Assembly (NCBI GenBank): GCA_030295235.1
Contig: AP026137.1
Location: 124,001 to 188,000 of the forward strand
Origin: Fistulifera solaris
Taxonomy: Eukaryota; Bacillariophyta; Bacillariophyceae; Naviculales; Stauroneidaceae
Reading direction: 5' to 3'
DNA length: 64,000 nucleotides
Shown here piece after piece: positions 55,503 to 64,000 of the stretch (positions are counted from its first letter, which is position 1; every line of letters starts with the position of its first letter). A program made the position numbers and the translations under genes. Below the pieces are notes generated by a model that saw nothing but the letters and a program-made list of their open reading frames with translations, did not search any database and was not told where the DNA came from.

Positions 55503-56223
55503 GTTGTTTGAGTAAGTTGCTTTCGAACAAAAGACGAAGAGTAACTTTGAAGAATGCTTGCTTTAGGCAATCGAAGAGAAGGAAGAGAATGAACACAAAG
55601 AAGAGAGATCCAAAACAAATGCTGCAACCATAGATCGCGTTGGGTGTCAAAGTCTACTCTTTTCTGGATGCTGTTTGAAACAGAACAACGGTCGGAAAGA
55701 TACCCGCCAGCCGCCAGTGTTGGATACCACGTGAACAAGTGTTGTATTTAATGACTAAATAAATAATGATGTCGTACTGACTCATATTTGTCTAAGTACT
55801 GTTTTGAACGGAAAACAATGCCAGCGTACGTGATGTTGCACGAACGACTGCGCGGAGTCACCAAGTAACCCGGAGGTCTATTAGTGACTGAAACTTAGTT
55901 CGTGCGAATACGTTGGAACGATTGGCTTGCTCTGTTGTGGGCGGAACAGTAGTTAGTGAGAACTGGAAACACGTTCTAGAGAGTACTATTAGTGCCTAAA
56001 GAGAGCCGCAACGACTCCGACCATTGGATCACGCGAGAAAAAACGGCTCCATCGATCGACACACTTTTTCCTTCCACATGCAACACACCATCATCCTTGT
56101 CGTTCCTTCCGATTCCTTCCTTCTTTGCTTCCTTTGTTTTATAATCATTTATTATTAAATAACGTACTCTTGTATCATTCCTCTAGCATCCTTATCGATC
56201 GTCGTCGAAGCACAATCTCAAAG
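55503..56223. promoter_or_regulatory. Divergent promoter region
   Basis: 721 bp between the methyltransferase-like gene (minus) and the PLC-like gene (plus). No gene or clear element recognised. Confidence 0.35.
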
Positions 56224-58748
56224 ATGCCTTCCACGCCACTTAACAATCCGCAACAGAAACAACAAAAACGCAAGGGACGGATTCTCGCCCTGTTGCTCTT
56301 TTTGATGGTCGTTGGTTGTGCGATTGCCTTTCCCGTCCTCTTTGTTTTGAACAAGGAAGAAGAAAGCGTTGTGGCGGAAGAAGGCGTGGATGTCATTGTC
56401 ACGTTGGAACCTACCACTGCCGTCATGACCACCGCACAAACCCAATCGTATGAATCGGCCGTCTTGAAATTCTATGCCTTGAATCTTGCGGCCGTCCGAT
56501 TGAAGGATGTTTCCATGACTTCACAACTGTTGGTGGATGTAAGAAATGAGTCGGGACGACGACAATTACAACAACAACAGCAAGATCGGGCATTGCGCAC
56601 AACAGTACGGATCGTTCCCACACAAGCCAATGTCACGTCCCTGCAACTTGCGAATCTCATGGATACCAAAGGAGACGAATTGTTGTCGTTATTGCAAAAA
56701 GAAACTACCGACAATTATTTTGATGCTCTCACGGTGGTCTATGCGACGGCGGTGACGACCGCTTCCACTCCTACCACGGCACCCTTGTCACAAGACACAA
56801 CGTGCAATGGGTTGTCAAATTTGTGTGATATTTCCGTATCGGACATCTTGTTTGCGACGATGCACAATGCGCATGCGGATCGTTCCGTATCACCCTTATT
56901 TCCCAACCAGAATCAAAATTGGCAAGCCGGTTTGGAGGCGGGGATTCGCGGACTCAATATGGATTTGGGATTTTGTTCCACTCAGAATGGCACCGTCTTG
57001 GCGTTTATGCACACGACGTGTGTCATTGGATTTTCCGAAGCATACTCTTTGTTGAAAGAATTGCATCAATGGCTGACGGATCATCCCAATGAAGTGATTT
57101 TGATGCCCCTCCAAATCGAAAATTCCGGTGCACAACCCGTTCGAATCGTCGAAGATGTCGCGCCCTTGTTCGAACGTATTGTTGACACGAACGGCAAATC
57201 CATGGCGGAGCGGTTGTATGCCTATGAAGGAGAAACGTGGCCGACGTTGCGAGAAATGATTGATGTCGATCAACGGATTTTGTTGTTTTTTTACAATACG
57301 GATGAAACATGCGAGTCAATCCAATGTCCGCGAGGATTTCATGATTGGTTTGCGTATGCGGCCGAAACGGAATTTGTGTTTGATTCCGTCGATGCCATTC
57401 AACAAGATGCGGCTCGGGCGTGTGGAATTACACGAGGAGGAAGTGGGACCCGAGATTTTTATGGCGTCAATGTGTTTTTGGAAATTCCCAATCCCGACGC
57501 GTCGGCTATTTTGCATCAAGCCGATTTCTTGTCGTCTCATCTAGAAGAGTGTTCGCAACAAAGTGGTCTATCTCCCAATCTCGTCATTGTGGATTTCTGG
57601 GATGAAGGTGATTTGATGCAAGTGGTCAATGACCGGAATGCTCAATTACGACCATCGTCTGCCGCCGGAGTCAACTCGACGTCGAATGTGGATGCGAGTC
57701 CAGTGGCTGCTCCGAGCCTCTCACCATCCGTTTTGTTGTTGACGGATGCCCCTGTACCGCCGCCACGGGTCGAGTCGCTGTCACCGAGCATTGCCGTTCG
57801 CGACGAAGTGGCGGCACCGACACGGGTCCCCGTCGCGTCGCCGATCGCGGCGTCACCTCCGATCAACAATTCGACACGCACTTGCAATGGATTGTCGAAT
57901 TTGTGTGATATGTCCGTCAATGCAACCCTCTTTGCGACCATGCACAATGCTCACGCGGATCGTGAATCGAAATTCTTCATCCCAAATCATGATTTGAATT
58001 TATTGGCGGGTCTGCAAGCCGGTATCCGGGGCTTGTCGATTGATATCGGTTTGTGTCAAGTAGACGGTGTCTTGAAATTGTCTTTGGTGCACGGGGTATG
58101 CTTCGTTGGGACATCGGATCCGTTTGTGGTGTTTGCTGGCATCAATAACTTTTTGCAACAAAATCCCAATGAAGTCATTATCATTCCCACGCAGATTGCG
58201 GATGATTTGGGAGGCACGGTGCAATTGACGGAGATTTACTCGATTATGGAACAAGTCGTCAATGATGCGGGCATTTCCATGGCGGATCGACTGTATGCTC
58301 ATCCTGGGCCAACGACGCCGTGGCCAACTTTAGGTGAGCTGATCGACTTGGACAAACGAATCCTCTTCTTCATTTACAATGGACAACAAACGTGCGAGAG
58401 TGGTTGTCCTGTTGGCTTTCATGATTGGTTTGCTTATGCCATGGAGACGAGGTTCGAATTCGATGATGCGGCGGCTATTCTCAGTAATCCGGAGGATGCT
58501 TGTGTAGTAACACGTGGTGGAACCTCTAGCACGCGGAGCTTTTTTGGTGTCAATGTTTTTACGCGTGTCGCCAACAGTGAGGCGTCAACAGAGTTGAATG
58601 ATGCTGCCTTTCTCCGGCAGCATATTGAGAACATGTTCCACCGTGAACGGTGGGAAAGACCCAAATCTTCTACTAGTCGATTTTTTGGAATGTAGGCGGC
58701 GTCATCCAAGTTGCGCAAGAATACAACGCTCAACTTGGAGCTGCTTAA
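56224..58748 (+). CDS. Membrane-anchored protein with two PLC-like phosphodiesterase domains
   Basis: ATG 56224 (MPSTPLNNPQQKQQKRKGR); one N-terminal membrane helix at about residues 20-45 makes it type II or signal-anchored. The first PI-PLC X-like domain starts at about residue 195: LFATMHNAHADR (His214), AGIRGLNMDLGF, FMHTTCVIG, EVILMPLQIE, FHDWFAYA and NLVIVDFWDEGD. A Pro/Ser/Val linker (about 490-550) is followed by a second domain with the same signature exactly 360 codons later (His574), AGIRGLSIDIGL and LVHGVCFVG. Near the end the frame slips twice, the second time in a T6 run (58681-58686). Corrected, the second domain ends VDFW and GGVIQVAQEYNAQLG with TAA at 58746-58748, parallel to domain 1. 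Uncorrected, it stops at 58695. Such PLC-like folds act on phosphoinositides or GPI; substrate here unknown. Confidence 0.82.
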
Positions 58749-58970: not shown

Positions 58971-60527
58971 TTATATGCGTGCAGATCCCCCTTTTCCTCC
59001 AGCTTTTCCGCCCTTTCCGCTGGATTTACTTGAATGATGGGCATGCCCTTTTCCACCTGAGCCCCCCTTTCCGCCGGAACCTCCTTTACCACTGGAGCCA
59101 CCTTTTCCGCCGGAACCTCCTTTACCACTGGAGCCACCTTTTCCGCCGGAACCTCCTTTACCGCTGGAGCCTCCTTTACCACTGGAGCCTCCTTTTCCGC
59201 TCGAACCGCCCTTTCCTTTTCCACCGGAACCTCCTTTACCACTGGAGCCTCCTTTTCCGCTTGAACCGCCCTTTCCTTTTCCACTGGAGCCTTCTTTTCC
59301 TTTTCCAGACTTGCTCTTCGAGATCTTGGACATTTTCCCGCTGTATTGTCTGCTCTTCTTCTTGGTCTGACTGGTGCTTCCACGGCCTTCCAAGGCGCCA
59401 CTATCGTAACTCTCGTGGCTGTCATCCTCCGTGTCATCCTCCGTGTCGACGGAGTTGTTGGTACTTTCACGTTTTCCGGAAACAGGAGGAACGGGTGAAG
59501 CAGGCATGGCAGCAACGGGTGACCTTGTCGGTGAGACCACGGGGCTCGCAACGGGTGGTGCGACGGGACTTGCAACCGGTAGGGACATGGGGCTCGCAAC
59601 GGGCGGATCTACGGGCACAATGTCAGGAACAGGAGGAGCTACCGGACTTCTTGTCGGAACAGGCACCGGAGCTGTTGGTACAGGCACCGGAGCTGTGGGA
59701 GCAGGAACCGGCGCTACAGGGGGTAGCAACTGGGGCATCCGTTCGTGGAACTACAGGGGCTTCCGTCGGGGTGGCGACAGGTGCGACCGGGCTACCTGTT
59801 GGAGCGCTGGTTCTCAAAACGGTTGGAGCCATTGTTTCATTGACTCCGATAGGGCTAGCAGTAGGGAAATCGGTCGGAGGGGCAATCGGACACACAGCAA
59901 GAGGAGGGTCCCCTAGATCAGTCTGTCAGAGAGAGATGAAGTAGTGAGGTTTTCTGTCTGAGGTAACAATCAGCTTGCGGGACAAGTGGTAAGACTTACA
60001 AAGATGGTCCAGCCAATCGTTTGACCTTCCGTCAAAAGAGGAAAGATACCACAGTCATTATCGTAAAGAATACCCCAAGTGTTGATGATCGGTTGACCCT
60101 CGGCGTTGTTACCAACGATGGATACTTGGAATCCTCGTGGCAGTGTGACAGGGTTGATGAATTCAGGGGTCGAACGAACAATCGATGTGTATGTGACGAC
60201 GTCTCCATCGAAGTAAGGCCCCTCGTTGTAGATGACGATGCCGACGACGTCTTGAAACTGATCCAACTCCAAGATTTGAATCTCGGAAACTGTCACCGGC
60301 ACAAGATCGGTCACGTTCACGGTGTCGGGGAGACGAGTGGCGATCAAACAATCCTGATCAAAGATGCCTTCTCCTCCTACCGTTGTATCGTTACACACAA
60401 GTCCGAAGTCGAGAGTGAGCTCATAGGTTGAAGGCTGGCATGCGCAGAGATCTGTTCCGACTGCCTGACCCATGCTCGGTCGAGCCCATAAAGCGGCTGC
60501 CACAAGTAGCTGTAATTTTGATTTCAT
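58971..60527 (-). CDS. Secreted Cys-domain protein with Lys-Gly-Ser polycation tail (about 492 aa)
   Basis: Exon 1 60000-60527, intron 59923-59999 (GTAAGT...TGACAG, 77 bp, phase 0 after GWTIF), exon 2 58971-59922. Signal peptide MKSKLQLLVAAALWARPSMG, then a ~155-residue domain with five Cys (TDLCACQPSTYELTLDF, LVC, QDC, NDC) and PIINTWGILYDNDC. After the intron come a Pro/Val/Thr linker (APTGSPVAPVATPTEAPVV), an acidic segment (TEDDTEDDSHESYD) and a tail of about 25 SGKGG/SGGKGG units. A one-base excess in a C5 run (59719-59723) breaks the frame; without it exon 2 is an exact multiple of three. Lys/Ser-rich secreted polycations in diatoms include silaffins; a role in silica or wall assembly is inference. 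Confidence 0.8.
59030..59300. repeat. Coding minisatellite (SGKGG units)
   Basis: Degenerate tandem repeats with 15- to 36-bp periodicity, built from CCTTTTCCGCC/GGAACCTCC/TTTACCACTGGAG blocks, encoding Ser-Gly-Lys-Gly-Gly on the minus strand. Length polymorphism is likely. Confidence 0.85.
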
Positions 60528-61316
60528 CGTGAATATTCCCCTTTCAAGTTAAAAGATCAAGCAATTTATGGTGCTGAGAGGTGAATGCTGAAATAGATTT
60601 GTGTTGTGTTCTCTCTTGTGTGATGAAGAGAAATACGACGAAGTTGTTGGGGACTTTCAAACAAGATGTTTTCAAAAAGTGGCGAGAAAATAATGCGGTC
60701 GACAAGAATCAATCCGATAACAATACAGTAAATAGTACAGTACGGAGGTTCTATCTTCGTAAAAGTGAACGTGATGCATAATCAGGACGCGCTACGACGT
60801 GACAGCTTTAAGAAAATTTCTTCACGATAGAAAAACAGTACCTAAATCTTAGACTTGTAAAGTAAAATCTTTGGCGTGAGCCACCAAAAGAATTCAAATC
60901 TTATCAAGTACACTATGATGGACTGTGGAGTGACAAAATTTTGGCAAGCATTATGTCCGTCAAGAAGAATGCTAACCTTAGTAGGCCATGGCATTAGCTA
61001 CAAAATTCTAGAGCGATGAAGTCCATCATGAATCTAAACCATTTAGATTCATGAGTCCAGTGTCAAAGCATCCACAAAGCTAAAAGTTGCTCGTAAAGAA
61101 TACCCGTTAGTTGCTATGCATTACTAGCTCCAGAAAATTGTGATCAAACACACAGAATTTTAACAATCACTAAATGCCATGAGACTATAAATCATTGTGT
61201 AATCTTCCCGTCTGTGATGTGTCGCTCGTCCTGAAACTGTCAGGCGATGGGAAATCGCCAAGAGATATACAGGATTACCAAAAGGCTGTAGTAATCCATC
61301 TGGTCGCCACAGTAAC
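60528..61316. other. Intergenic with a 13-bp perfect hairpin
   Basis: Between two minus-strand paralogues: 3' region of the gene ending at 61317 and promoter of the gene starting at 60527. TCATGAATCTAAA (61026-61038) and its complement (61042-61054) form a 13-bp stem with a 3-nt loop. No other element seen. Confidence 0.6.
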
Positions 61317-62903
61317 TTATGGACGAGGCTCCGGACATCCACTGGGGTATGCATAAGGGGCGTGAGGACCGACATGTAAATGTCTGTGAGTGGACCCTTT
61401 GCGATCAGAACCACGCCCCTTTCCGTTTGCGGCTTTGCTATCATGTTTCGAATCCTTCTTGGATGCCTTGTTCGCTCTTTTCTCTGAGAATGGGAGACGG
61501 TTTCCTGGCCTTCTCCTTCTTCGATTCCTTTTACGAGATGGCGATGCACTGTCATCGCGCTTTCTTCGTCGTCTTCTTCTCCGTCTTTCAGGGACATCGG
61601 AGGAGTCACTATTCCTCTTGCGTTTCATGGGAGCATCCGAGGTGTGTTCTGGCTTGCTTTGTCGGCGTGACATGGAACGATTGGGCGCTCGCTTCCCTCC
61701 AACTGGAGACGCCACGTCGGCATGGTTCGATTGCCGCTTTCCGCTAATTTCACAAGAGGGAGCAGCCGTCTTCTCAACACTGGGGCTCTTCGTTGAAACC
61801 GGGACAGGCACGGCAGTCACAAAGGGAGTCAGGGATGGAAGATCGGAAACAAGAGTAGGTGCACTTGTGGGGACGGATGCCGTCACCGGAGCAGACGTTG
61901 TTCCGCCAACGGGACTTTGCGTGGCGTCAACAGGCGCAGCGTTGGGCATCAAAACCGGAGCCGGCGTCCTCTCTGCCACGGGACTGACGGTAGTAGTAGC
62001 AGGAGCAGGTGTTATCGCTGCCATAGGACTCGCAGTCGTCGTAACCGGCGCGGGTGTTCTCTCTGCTACCGGGCTGCCGGTAGTCGTAGCAGGAGCTGGT
62101 GTTGCCGCTGGACTGACAGTCGTATTGGCCGGCACCATAGTGGCAATCGGAACTGGAGCCAAAGTTACCACGGGGCTCAAAGAAGGCATCGCTGGCGCCA
62201 CAACGGGAGCCTCCGTTCTCGTTACCGTTGGAACGATGGTAGTGACTTCGCTGGGCATCGAACTGACCAGCGGGCACAAGAGAGGCTCTACCGGTGGATC
62301 CCGTAGTTCGGTCTGAAAAGATAGAAAATGAGGAATGACTAGCAGTAATGCTTGAATGCGAGTCAAATGCACTTACAAATACCGTCCAGCCGATTCGTTG
62401 ACCGGCAGTGATTACGGGATGCACCGCACAATCGTTGGTGAATTCAATGGCCCACGTATTAATGATGGGTTCTCCCGCCGCATTTTGCCCCGTCGCAAAG
62501 ACCGACAAGGCACTGGGCAGACTCACGGCGTCAATAGCATCACTTAGCAAAAGGAAGTATAATTCAAAACATCCCCATCGACATAACCCTCCGCAAAGAG
62601 ATTTTGTCGCACAATGTTTCCTGCCTGATCCGTTTCAAAAAATTGTATTTCATTGATCATGGTGGGTACAAAGTCAGTCAGATTCGCGTCGGTCGACTTA
62701 TCGACCAAACAAGTCGTATCTTCGATCCCCGGTAGACCCGCCGCGATGGTCGCATCACTGCAAGTTAAATTGAATTGGAGACGAACGGAATACACGGCGG
62801 GCTGACAAGCACAAAGATCGACCCCAATCTGTTGGCCTGTAATGCTTGCAAGCAGCCAAGCGGCGCTGACAAGGATTCTTGTCAAGAATTCTCTTTGAAT
62901 CAT
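61317..62903 (-). CDS. Secreted Cys-domain protein with Arg-rich tail (about 507 aa)
   Basis: Exon 1 62377-62903, intron 62313-62376 (GTAAGT...TTTCAG, 64 bp, phase 0 after GWTVF), exon 2 61317-62312. ATG 62903, signal region LVSAAWLLASITGQQ, then the same five-Cys domain as at 60527 (VDLCACQPAVYSVRLQFNLT, TTC, NDC; EPIINTWAIEFTNDC). Exon 1 is 527 nt against 528 in the paralogue and breaks in frame at a T4 run (plus-strand A4, 62549-62552), so one base is probably missing. Exon 2 starts TELRDPP (TDLGDPP in the paralogue), has a long PVAERTPAP/TTTVSP linker, then a strongly basic tail (ERRRRRRRRKRDDSASPSRK, RNRRRRRPGNR, KKDSKHDSK) and a His/Pro end. A silica- or wall-associated polycation is an inference. 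Confidence 0.78.
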
Positions 62904-63631
62904 GCTGCAGTTCGCTTTGCGGAAGTTGAATTGCGTTCCTTTGTGGGTAAATTACAAAGCGAGAATATAGCAAGAAAACGAATACAACTGGCTGGAAATA
63001 AGGCAGTCAAACACCCCGTTACAGAAACGTCTCCCTCTATTGTGCTGCTGTATCCAAAGTGTCTCTCTTCTCTTCAAAAGAGAGGTCGTAAGGACTTTAT
63101 TAGGAGGAATGAGGGTGGACTTTTGCACCCATTCATTCGAATGGAGGGTGCACGAAAATTACATACGGACTTATTTCGGTGCGCGTTGGTGGAGTTTACT
63201 CTTGGTTCACGGTCCACCGCGACGCTGTTTCCGTTGACGTAGGTGAAATTTTGGTGAGTTCGAACGGTACTTAAGGATGTGACATGCTCGAGTCTTTAAA
63301 TACAGAACACGAAATAACGCTCCTCTTCTAAGTATTCCAATATTTAGAGGAGCCGAATTCGATAGTGACCACCATAATACCCATTGCGTCACGAGTTTTC
63401 GTGATTGTGTTGCAACCAATAAGGATTTGATTATTTGCGAGATGTTGCGATGATGATGACTATAAACTACAAGTATTCTTCGTTTATCTCTCGTAATGGT
63501 TTACTTAAGTCATTCATAGCTTTCACATACTAGCGGGAACGCAAAACTTGCCTTGTCATGAGCAGCTGACGTTTTTGACCTAACAACAAAGAAAAGCCGA
63601 AAATTTAACGAACATTCCGACTCTTTACAGG
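62904..63631. promoter_or_regulatory. Divergent promoter region
   Basis: 728 bp between the Arg-tail protein gene (minus) and the PGAP1-like gene (plus). An inverted repeat GCTCCTCT (63319-63326) / AGAGGAGC (63346-63353) lies in it. No gene called. Confidence 0.4.
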
Positions 63632-64000
63632 ATGAGTGGGTCATGGACGCATCGCGTCGCCATGATATACAGTGTTTGCTGTATTGTGTTGGGACGGTTC
63701 TTGGCGTACAAGTATCTGTATCATCACAAAGAATGTGATATGACATGGTCACAACGTCGTTTTCTCGAGTTGCCTCTCTCGACGAATGAAACTCCCTATC
63801 GTTTGTTCAAATTCACCGACGCCCGTGATCTTCGATACCGCCCATTCTTTGCACACAACAACGGTAAAGTCACCAACCTTGAGGACAATTCGTGGTGTAA
63901 CAGTCACAACCATTCGGTTCCTGTCTTATTTGTTCCGGGCCACGCGGGAGATTACCAACAAGCCCGGAGTTTGGGAGCTCATGCCGTACACATGACGGGA
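63632..64000 (+). CDS. PGAP1: PGAP1/Bst1-like GPI inositol-deacylase, N-terminal part (runs off window)
   Basis: ATG 63632 (MSGSWTHRVAMIYSVCCIVL); 123 codons are present and the frame is still open at the window edge. An N-terminal hydrophobic segment (about residues 9-25) would be the first membrane helix. It is followed by CDMTW (PGAP1 proteins have a CxMTY/W motif here), TPYRLFKFTD, and VPVLFVPGHAGDYQQARSLG, the conserved alpha/beta-hydrolase entry block of PGAP1 (VLFIPGNAGSYKQVRS type). The catalytic GHSMG serine lies beyond the window. The family removes the acyl chain from GPI inositol in the ER, needed for export of GPI-anchored proteins. No stop or intron is visible in this part. Confidence 0.82.
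   Translation, partial: MSGSWTHRVAMIYSVCCIVLGRFLAYKYLYHHKECDMTWSQRRFLELPLSTNETPYRLFKFTDARDLRYRPFFAHNNGKVTNLEDNSWCNSHNHSVPVLFVPGHAGDYQQARSLGAHAVHMTG

Follow-up and report, generated by a model that had tools for sequence, protein, structure and literature searches.

In this study, we analysed two adjacent genes, here called A and B, in a 64,000-nucleotide stretch of the genome of Fistulifera solaris, an oil-rich diatom, and found that they belong to a family of four genes whose predicted products combine a signal-peptide-like start, an acidic head with six invariant cysteines and a strongly basic tail. The stretch, referred to as the window, covers positions 124001-188000 of contig C17 in a genome of 51.7 Mb and 61 contigs. 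The family is real, conserved and wider than two genes, and a role in silica is plausible. We propose, with a confidence that we would call evenly balanced, that its members are secreted, charge-split proteins of the cell-wall matrix, each made of a folded docking head and a silica-active, silaffin-like tail.

Two guide-RNA target sites published for F. solaris (PMC13276009) are matched exactly by this genome, each of them twice, on contigs C38/C39 and C7/C8. F. solaris is allodiploid (PMC13276009), so that two homoeologues are expected per gene. Searches of the genome with the heads of A, C and D each returned the same ten places, corresponding to eight gene copies, two of which are in two pieces: genes A and B lie on C17 and C18, and their paralogues C and D on C35 and C34 (copies are designated below by gene and contig number, for instance A17). 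These searches were cut off at an expect value (E) of 10 for C and D and of 0.01 for A, and more distant members could escape them. The heads of B, C and D are 45%, 52% and 35% identical to that of A, and five aligned heads, which represent the four paralogues with two rows being homoeologues of C, have 31 invariant columns. Together with the low ratio of nonsynonymous to synonymous substitution (dN/dS) in exon 1, these values show a family resemblance that is more than chance. An earlier note on this DNA had described A and B as twin genes for a five-cysteine domain. The two genes are homologous, with 45% identity in the domain when the unbroken C18 copy of B is used, but they are only two of four paralogues. 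Moreover, six cysteines are invariant in all five aligned heads, five before the intron and the sixth (in LAVCPI or PLLCPL) encoded just 3′ of it. The idea of a fixed head joined to differing basic tails holds for all four genes found in this genome.

Gene A (58971-60527) and gene B (61317-62903) lie head to tail on the minus strand, as do all features given for them below, with ~0.8 kb between them. In the product of each, a signal-peptide-like segment precedes a domain 165-169 residues long, which is joined to a basic tail by a Pro/Thr-rich linker. In gene A, exon 1 (60000..60527) opens with the signal-peptide-like start (60468-60527) and encodes the acidic domain with Cys 1-5, up to GWTIF at the splice donor TTT/GTAAGT. 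After a phase 0 intron of 77 bases (59923..59999), exon 2 (58971..59922) encodes TDLGDPPLAVCPI with Cys 6, a Pro-rich PVAxP linker and the tail, which runs from ~59480 down through an acidic patch, a KSK cluster and SGKGG repeats, with the stop codon at 58971-58973. Exon 1 of gene B (62377..62903; signal-peptide-like start at 62835-62903, then the acidic domain with Cys 1-5) ends in GWTVF; it is followed by a phase 0 intron of 64 bases (62313..62376) and by exon 2 (61317..62312; stop codon at 61317-61319), which encodes TELRDPPVEPLLCPL with Cys 6, a Pro/Thr linker and, from ~61745 down, a tail with an SGKR start, Arg8 and Arg5 blocks, KASKKDSKHDSK and His/Pro/Tyr at its end. The intron occupies an identical position, in phase 0 after GWTxF, in all eight gene copies (splice sites read from the sequence, without RNA), and the N-termini of A-D are hydrophobic, as judged by eye without a predictor. 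Several features claimed by the earlier note are thus borne out in both genes: the signal-peptide-like start, the common intron codon, the DPP and Pro/Thr linker after the intron, and the two types of tail, SGKGG/KSK after an acidic patch in A and Arg8/Arg5 blocks with His near the end in B.

Heads and tails differ sharply in charge. The heads of A17, B18, C35 and D35 have an isoelectric point of 4.1 and a net charge of -15 to -20, while the tails of A17, A18, B17, B18 and C35 and the Lys part of D34 carry a net charge of +21 to +32. We counted 4 lysines in the 671 residues of four heads (one copy each of A-D), and 135 in the 3714 residues (3.6%) of eight neighbouring open reading frames. The corresponding binomial estimate for the heads is 3e-7, to be read with the heads being homologous and hence not independent, and with the neighbouring frames being read from stop to stop, containing some untranslated sequence and including two homoeologues of one gene. 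One of these eight neighbours, the phospholipase-like protein described below, is acidic and poor in lysine as well (1.8%), so that lysine poverty of the head may be, in part, general to exported proteins here. Among the other tails, that of C is rich in Lys, Ser and Gly with an Asp-rich patch, and that of D combines a Lys cluster with a further part, with an RRL motif and, close to its C-terminus, with one helix of strong hydrophobicity. The mean hydropathy of the hydrophobic 19-mer of D is 2.06; no value above 1.08 is reached within exon 2 of A18, B18 and C35. A genome search with the C-terminal part of D (E up to 1) returned nothing but its own two copies. Finally, the acidic patches in the tails of A17, A18 and C35 are clustered beyond what composition gives (0 of 5000 shuffles).

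Comparison of homoeologues points to constraint on both parts of the protein. The dN/dS ranges from 0.01 to 0.19 in pieces of exon 1, which include the signal peptide, and from 0.16 to 0.38 in the linkers; in the tails, it is 0.09 for A, 0.29 for B, 0.23-0.28 for C and 0.37 for D (C-terminal part only, without the Lys cluster). As these values are well below 1, the tails are maintained by selection. One could instead see the head as the working part, for ligand binding or surface recognition, and the tails as loosely constrained low-complexity expansions. This would agree with exon 1 values that are on the whole below those of linkers and tails (0.09-0.38), with an SGKGG array of A that is unequal in length between homoeologues, and with the finding that no exact string of more than 7 residues is common to the tails of A18, B18 and C35 and the Lys part of D34. 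We nevertheless consider it improbable, given that the sign and size of the tail charge are kept between the homoeologues of A (+21 and +27) and of B (+31 and +32), that tail dN/dS stays well below 1 and that a strongly basic stretch is present in all four genes.

How the tails came to differ can also be addressed. Tail swapping after a fixed exon, as put forward in the earlier note, does not agree with the gene structure: linker and tail lie in one exon, which opens with conserved head sequence including the sixth cysteine, and the tails of A, B and C start with SGKR in both homoeologues. We therefore rejected exon shuffling; divergence in place would fit these two observations better. In shuffled tails (one copy each), SGKR occurs within the first 40 residues with a frequency of 0.007 to 0.013; in the case of A, the tail start set by an objective criterion lies 12 residues beyond its SGKR. 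A second SGKR is present further along tail C, and another stands late in the Lys region of D. The SGKGG-type pattern has 22 matches in the genome, 19 of them in the two copies of gene A (10 in exon 2 of the window copy) and the remaining 3 elsewhere, in genes rich in Lys, Gly and Ser. Genes of this composition with SGKG repeats are found at C22:765246, C25:445250 and C26:390248 and can be regarded as silaffin-like candidates; we found no six-cysteine head in any of the three. The C22 gene has acidic patches between its SGKG repeats, and the C25 and C26 genes, which have a His/Pro/Glu part, look like homoeologues. Genome counts of the Arg blocks were uninformative, as the reversed pattern gave more matches (225) than the pattern itself (77).

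Neither window copy is a single open frame, which the earlier note had missed. Gene A is broken once, at a C-run in exon 2 (59719..59723, minus strand), and gene B once, at a T-run in exon 1 (62549..62552, minus strand); in both cases the C18 homoeologue is open. Across the family, five of the eight copies are broken (A17, B17, C34, D35 and D34) and three are open (A18, B18 and C35). We aligned eight homoeologous stretches, namely six family exons, a gene beside gene C that we take to be CTP synthase-like, and part of the phospholipase-like neighbour of gene A described below. They contain 14 gaps that are not divisible by three, 10 of which lie at runs of at least four equal bases (some non-coding end bases are included). 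The CTP synthase-like gene is a single open frame on C34 and is split on C35, and small frame breaks, many of them at base runs, recur in other coding regions of the assembly. Given that both C18 copies have open frames and that other genes show small breaks as well, we attribute the breaks most probably to consensus error in the assembly, true frameshifts being less likely. The single break of each C17 copy relative to its C18 homoeologue could also mean that the window copies of A and B are decaying pseudogenes. This is very unlikely: non-triplet gaps recur in the neighbouring gene and in the CTP synthase-like gene, 10 of 14 are at base runs, and dN/dS is low although five of the eight family copies are affected.

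With respect to function, we can propose the following sequence of events. The proteins would pass through the endoplasmic reticulum, and the head would fold, perhaps with three disulphides, and serve for specific docking or assembly, either in the silica deposition vesicle or in the organic matrix of the wall. The tail would bind silica, phosphate or anionic polysaccharide and promote silica deposition. Its lysines may be modified as in silaffins, and with almost no lysine in the head such modification would be restricted to the tail. Self-assembly would be favoured by the opposite charges of the two parts, paralogue D, if membrane-anchored, could tie the soluble members to the vesicle membrane, and the differing tails would tune local chemistry.

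Such a role in the wall matrix is supported by several lines of evidence. First, F. solaris is a diatom with a frustule, and its four paralogues have head, intron place and linker in common and differ in their tails. Second, acidic lysine-poor heads stand against strongly basic tails, with dN/dS well below 1 in both, and matches to the SGKGG-type pattern are concentrated in gene A. Finally, support comes from published work: two of four Lys-enriched regions of the cingulin CinW2 are enough to bring green fluorescent protein to the frustule (PMC9650480), AC3362 of Amphora coffeaeformis, a protein with KG repeats, belongs to the wall matrix and is not seen in adhesive trails (PMC4220933), and poly-Lys and poly-Arg both precipitate silica (PMC4557024).

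Other observations weigh against this role. Our searches found no localisation, expression or proteome datum for the A-D proteins. Tail B is Arg-rich and does not have silaffin composition, taken as a stretch of 100-200 residues containing at least 18% Ser and at least 10% Lys: there is none in B17 or B18 (KxxK counts, 2 and 3), and the six invariant cysteines of the head depart from the silaffin and cingulin trait of at most one cysteine and disorder throughout. The phospholipase-like neighbour is itself acidic and lysine-poor (1.8%), which bears on the idea of a lysine modification restricted to the tail. In CinW2, the other two of the four single Lys-enriched regions are mostly intracellular, and within its residues 1-187 neither exchange of Lys for Arg nor deletion of two Lys-enriched regions causes mislocalisation (PMC9650480). 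These CinW2 results mean that a basic stretch alone is no proof of wall targeting. Pentalysine clusters of silaffins were described as targeting stretches of 12-14 residues (PMC9650480), and similar windows arise in 92% of shuffled tails of A, 19-21% of B, 89% of C and 100% of the Lys part of D; we therefore discarded them as evidence for silica targeting.

The main rival explanation is that these are secreted proteins of an extracellular matrix or mucilage, in which the tails would act outside silica on polysaccharides bearing carboxyl or sulphate groups, cross-linking them in the mucilage of adhesion, capsules or colonies; the proteins would then have no part in the silica deposition vesicle. 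A signal-peptide-like start, a Pro/Thr linker and basic tails would suit any anionic matrix, and we found no silica-specific motif beyond composition. We hold this explanation possible, if doubtful. AC3362, which has KG repeats, is located in the wall and not in adhesive trails, and Lys-enriched regions occur in frustule proteins, a comparison biased by a literature search that was aimed at silica.

If the wall-matrix role holds, it might take a more specific form, which we put forward as a rather unlikely one: the acidic, nearly lysine-free six-cysteine head would dock to one partner only within the silica deposition vesicle and so bring four chemically different polycations (Lys spaced by Gly, blocks of Arg, Lys combined with an acidic patch, and a Lys cluster tied to the membrane) to one place, where their ratio would set the silica pattern. 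With a constant head, a changing polycation and one member apparently membrane-anchored, exchange of heads and tails could separate place from chemistry. Editing of both homoeologues has been published for F. solaris (PMC13276009).

No relatives of the head were found in the collections searched. None of the five heads has a Pfam family and no PDB sequence matches the head (E up to 1 in both cases). One pattern-based scan each gave 35 matches in viral contigs and 272 in GTDB genome contigs, none of which was confirmed by tblastn; for eukaryotes, the search covered this F. solaris genome. An AlphaFold model (three window sequences) has a mean predicted local distance difference test (pLDDT) score of 45, with strands and a three-residue helical turn only, and is too weak for fold comparison. 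Queries of the open-licence literature with head peptides, SGKGG-type strings and Lys-rich plus Cys-rich diatom proteins retrieved no description of the family, nor does one appear in the available part of PMC11151724. The F. solaris frustule protein G7408 might be a member, as an unconfirmed candidate.

Two further genes flank the pair on the plus strand. The gene at 55993-58695 has two tandem domain copies starting TCNGLSNLCD...FATMHNAHADR and presumably resembles phospholipase C of the X type; it has no Pfam match above cut-off. Its frame differs from that of the C18 copy near the 3′ end, and the C18 copy is broken elsewhere. On the other side, 63584-64000 belongs to a PGAP1-like alpha/beta hydrolase gene whose C18 copy, the only one scanned, matches Pfam PF07819 (E 1.7e-38).

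The family can be compared with known silica and wall proteins. Among secreted wall proteins, AC3362 resembles it as a secreted diatom protein with KG repeats in a biosilica-associated matrix, whereas AC3362 is Lys/Tyr-rich and cysteine goes unmentioned in the main text of its description (PMC4220933). The frustulins of F. solaris itself are secreted wall proteins, and Pro-rich linkers occur in some of them (PMC4712521). Neither head A nor exon 2 of A18, B18, C35 and D34 contains a match to the acidic Cys-rich hexapeptide of frustulin type.

Paralogue D invites comparison with the silicalemma-associated proteins (SAPs) and silicanin, two kinds of membrane protein found in the silica vesicle (PMC5647440, PMC5525289). 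D bears a partial resemblance to SAP1-3, with a signal-peptide-like start, a run of Ser in its putative luminal part, an RXL motif, a single hydrophobic helix and a short C-terminal end. It differs from them by its six-cysteine head and Lys cluster and by an RXL that comes after this cluster; its RRL is placed differently from the description of SAPs, and its Ser run (SSSSSS) is short. The SAPs carry a conserved 28-residue cytoplasmic segment (PMC5647440). With Silicanin-1, D alone shares a cysteine-containing luminal domain followed by a membrane helix, although the family head has six cysteines and is unlike the 18-Cys NQ-rich domain. GGQKFAL, which precedes the transmembrane helix of silicanins, is absent from exon 2 of A18, B18, C35 and D34.

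Silaffins and cingulins from Thalassiosira and Cylindrotheca are secreted, as is predicted for the family, and the family tails resemble them in Lys/Ser/Gly-rich stretches with some KxxK spacing. Stretches of the silaffin composition defined above are present in A17, A18, C35 and D34, which have 4, 4, 4 and 13 KxxK motifs, respectively. The family differs by the acidic six-cysteine head that precedes the tail and by the Arg-rich tail of B. The alternation of KxxK and Trp/Tyr-rich regions seen in cingulins was not found in tail A17 (0 Trp and 2 Tyr in 169 residues). Silaffins, cingulins and silacidins are disordered and have one or no cysteine (PMC5525289); the silica polycations described are mostly of this kind, and short Lys-rich stretches steer them only partly. 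If a single docking head did bring the four polycations to one place, the proteins encoded by this family would form a hybrid class between the disordered silaffins and the folded proteins of the silicalemma.

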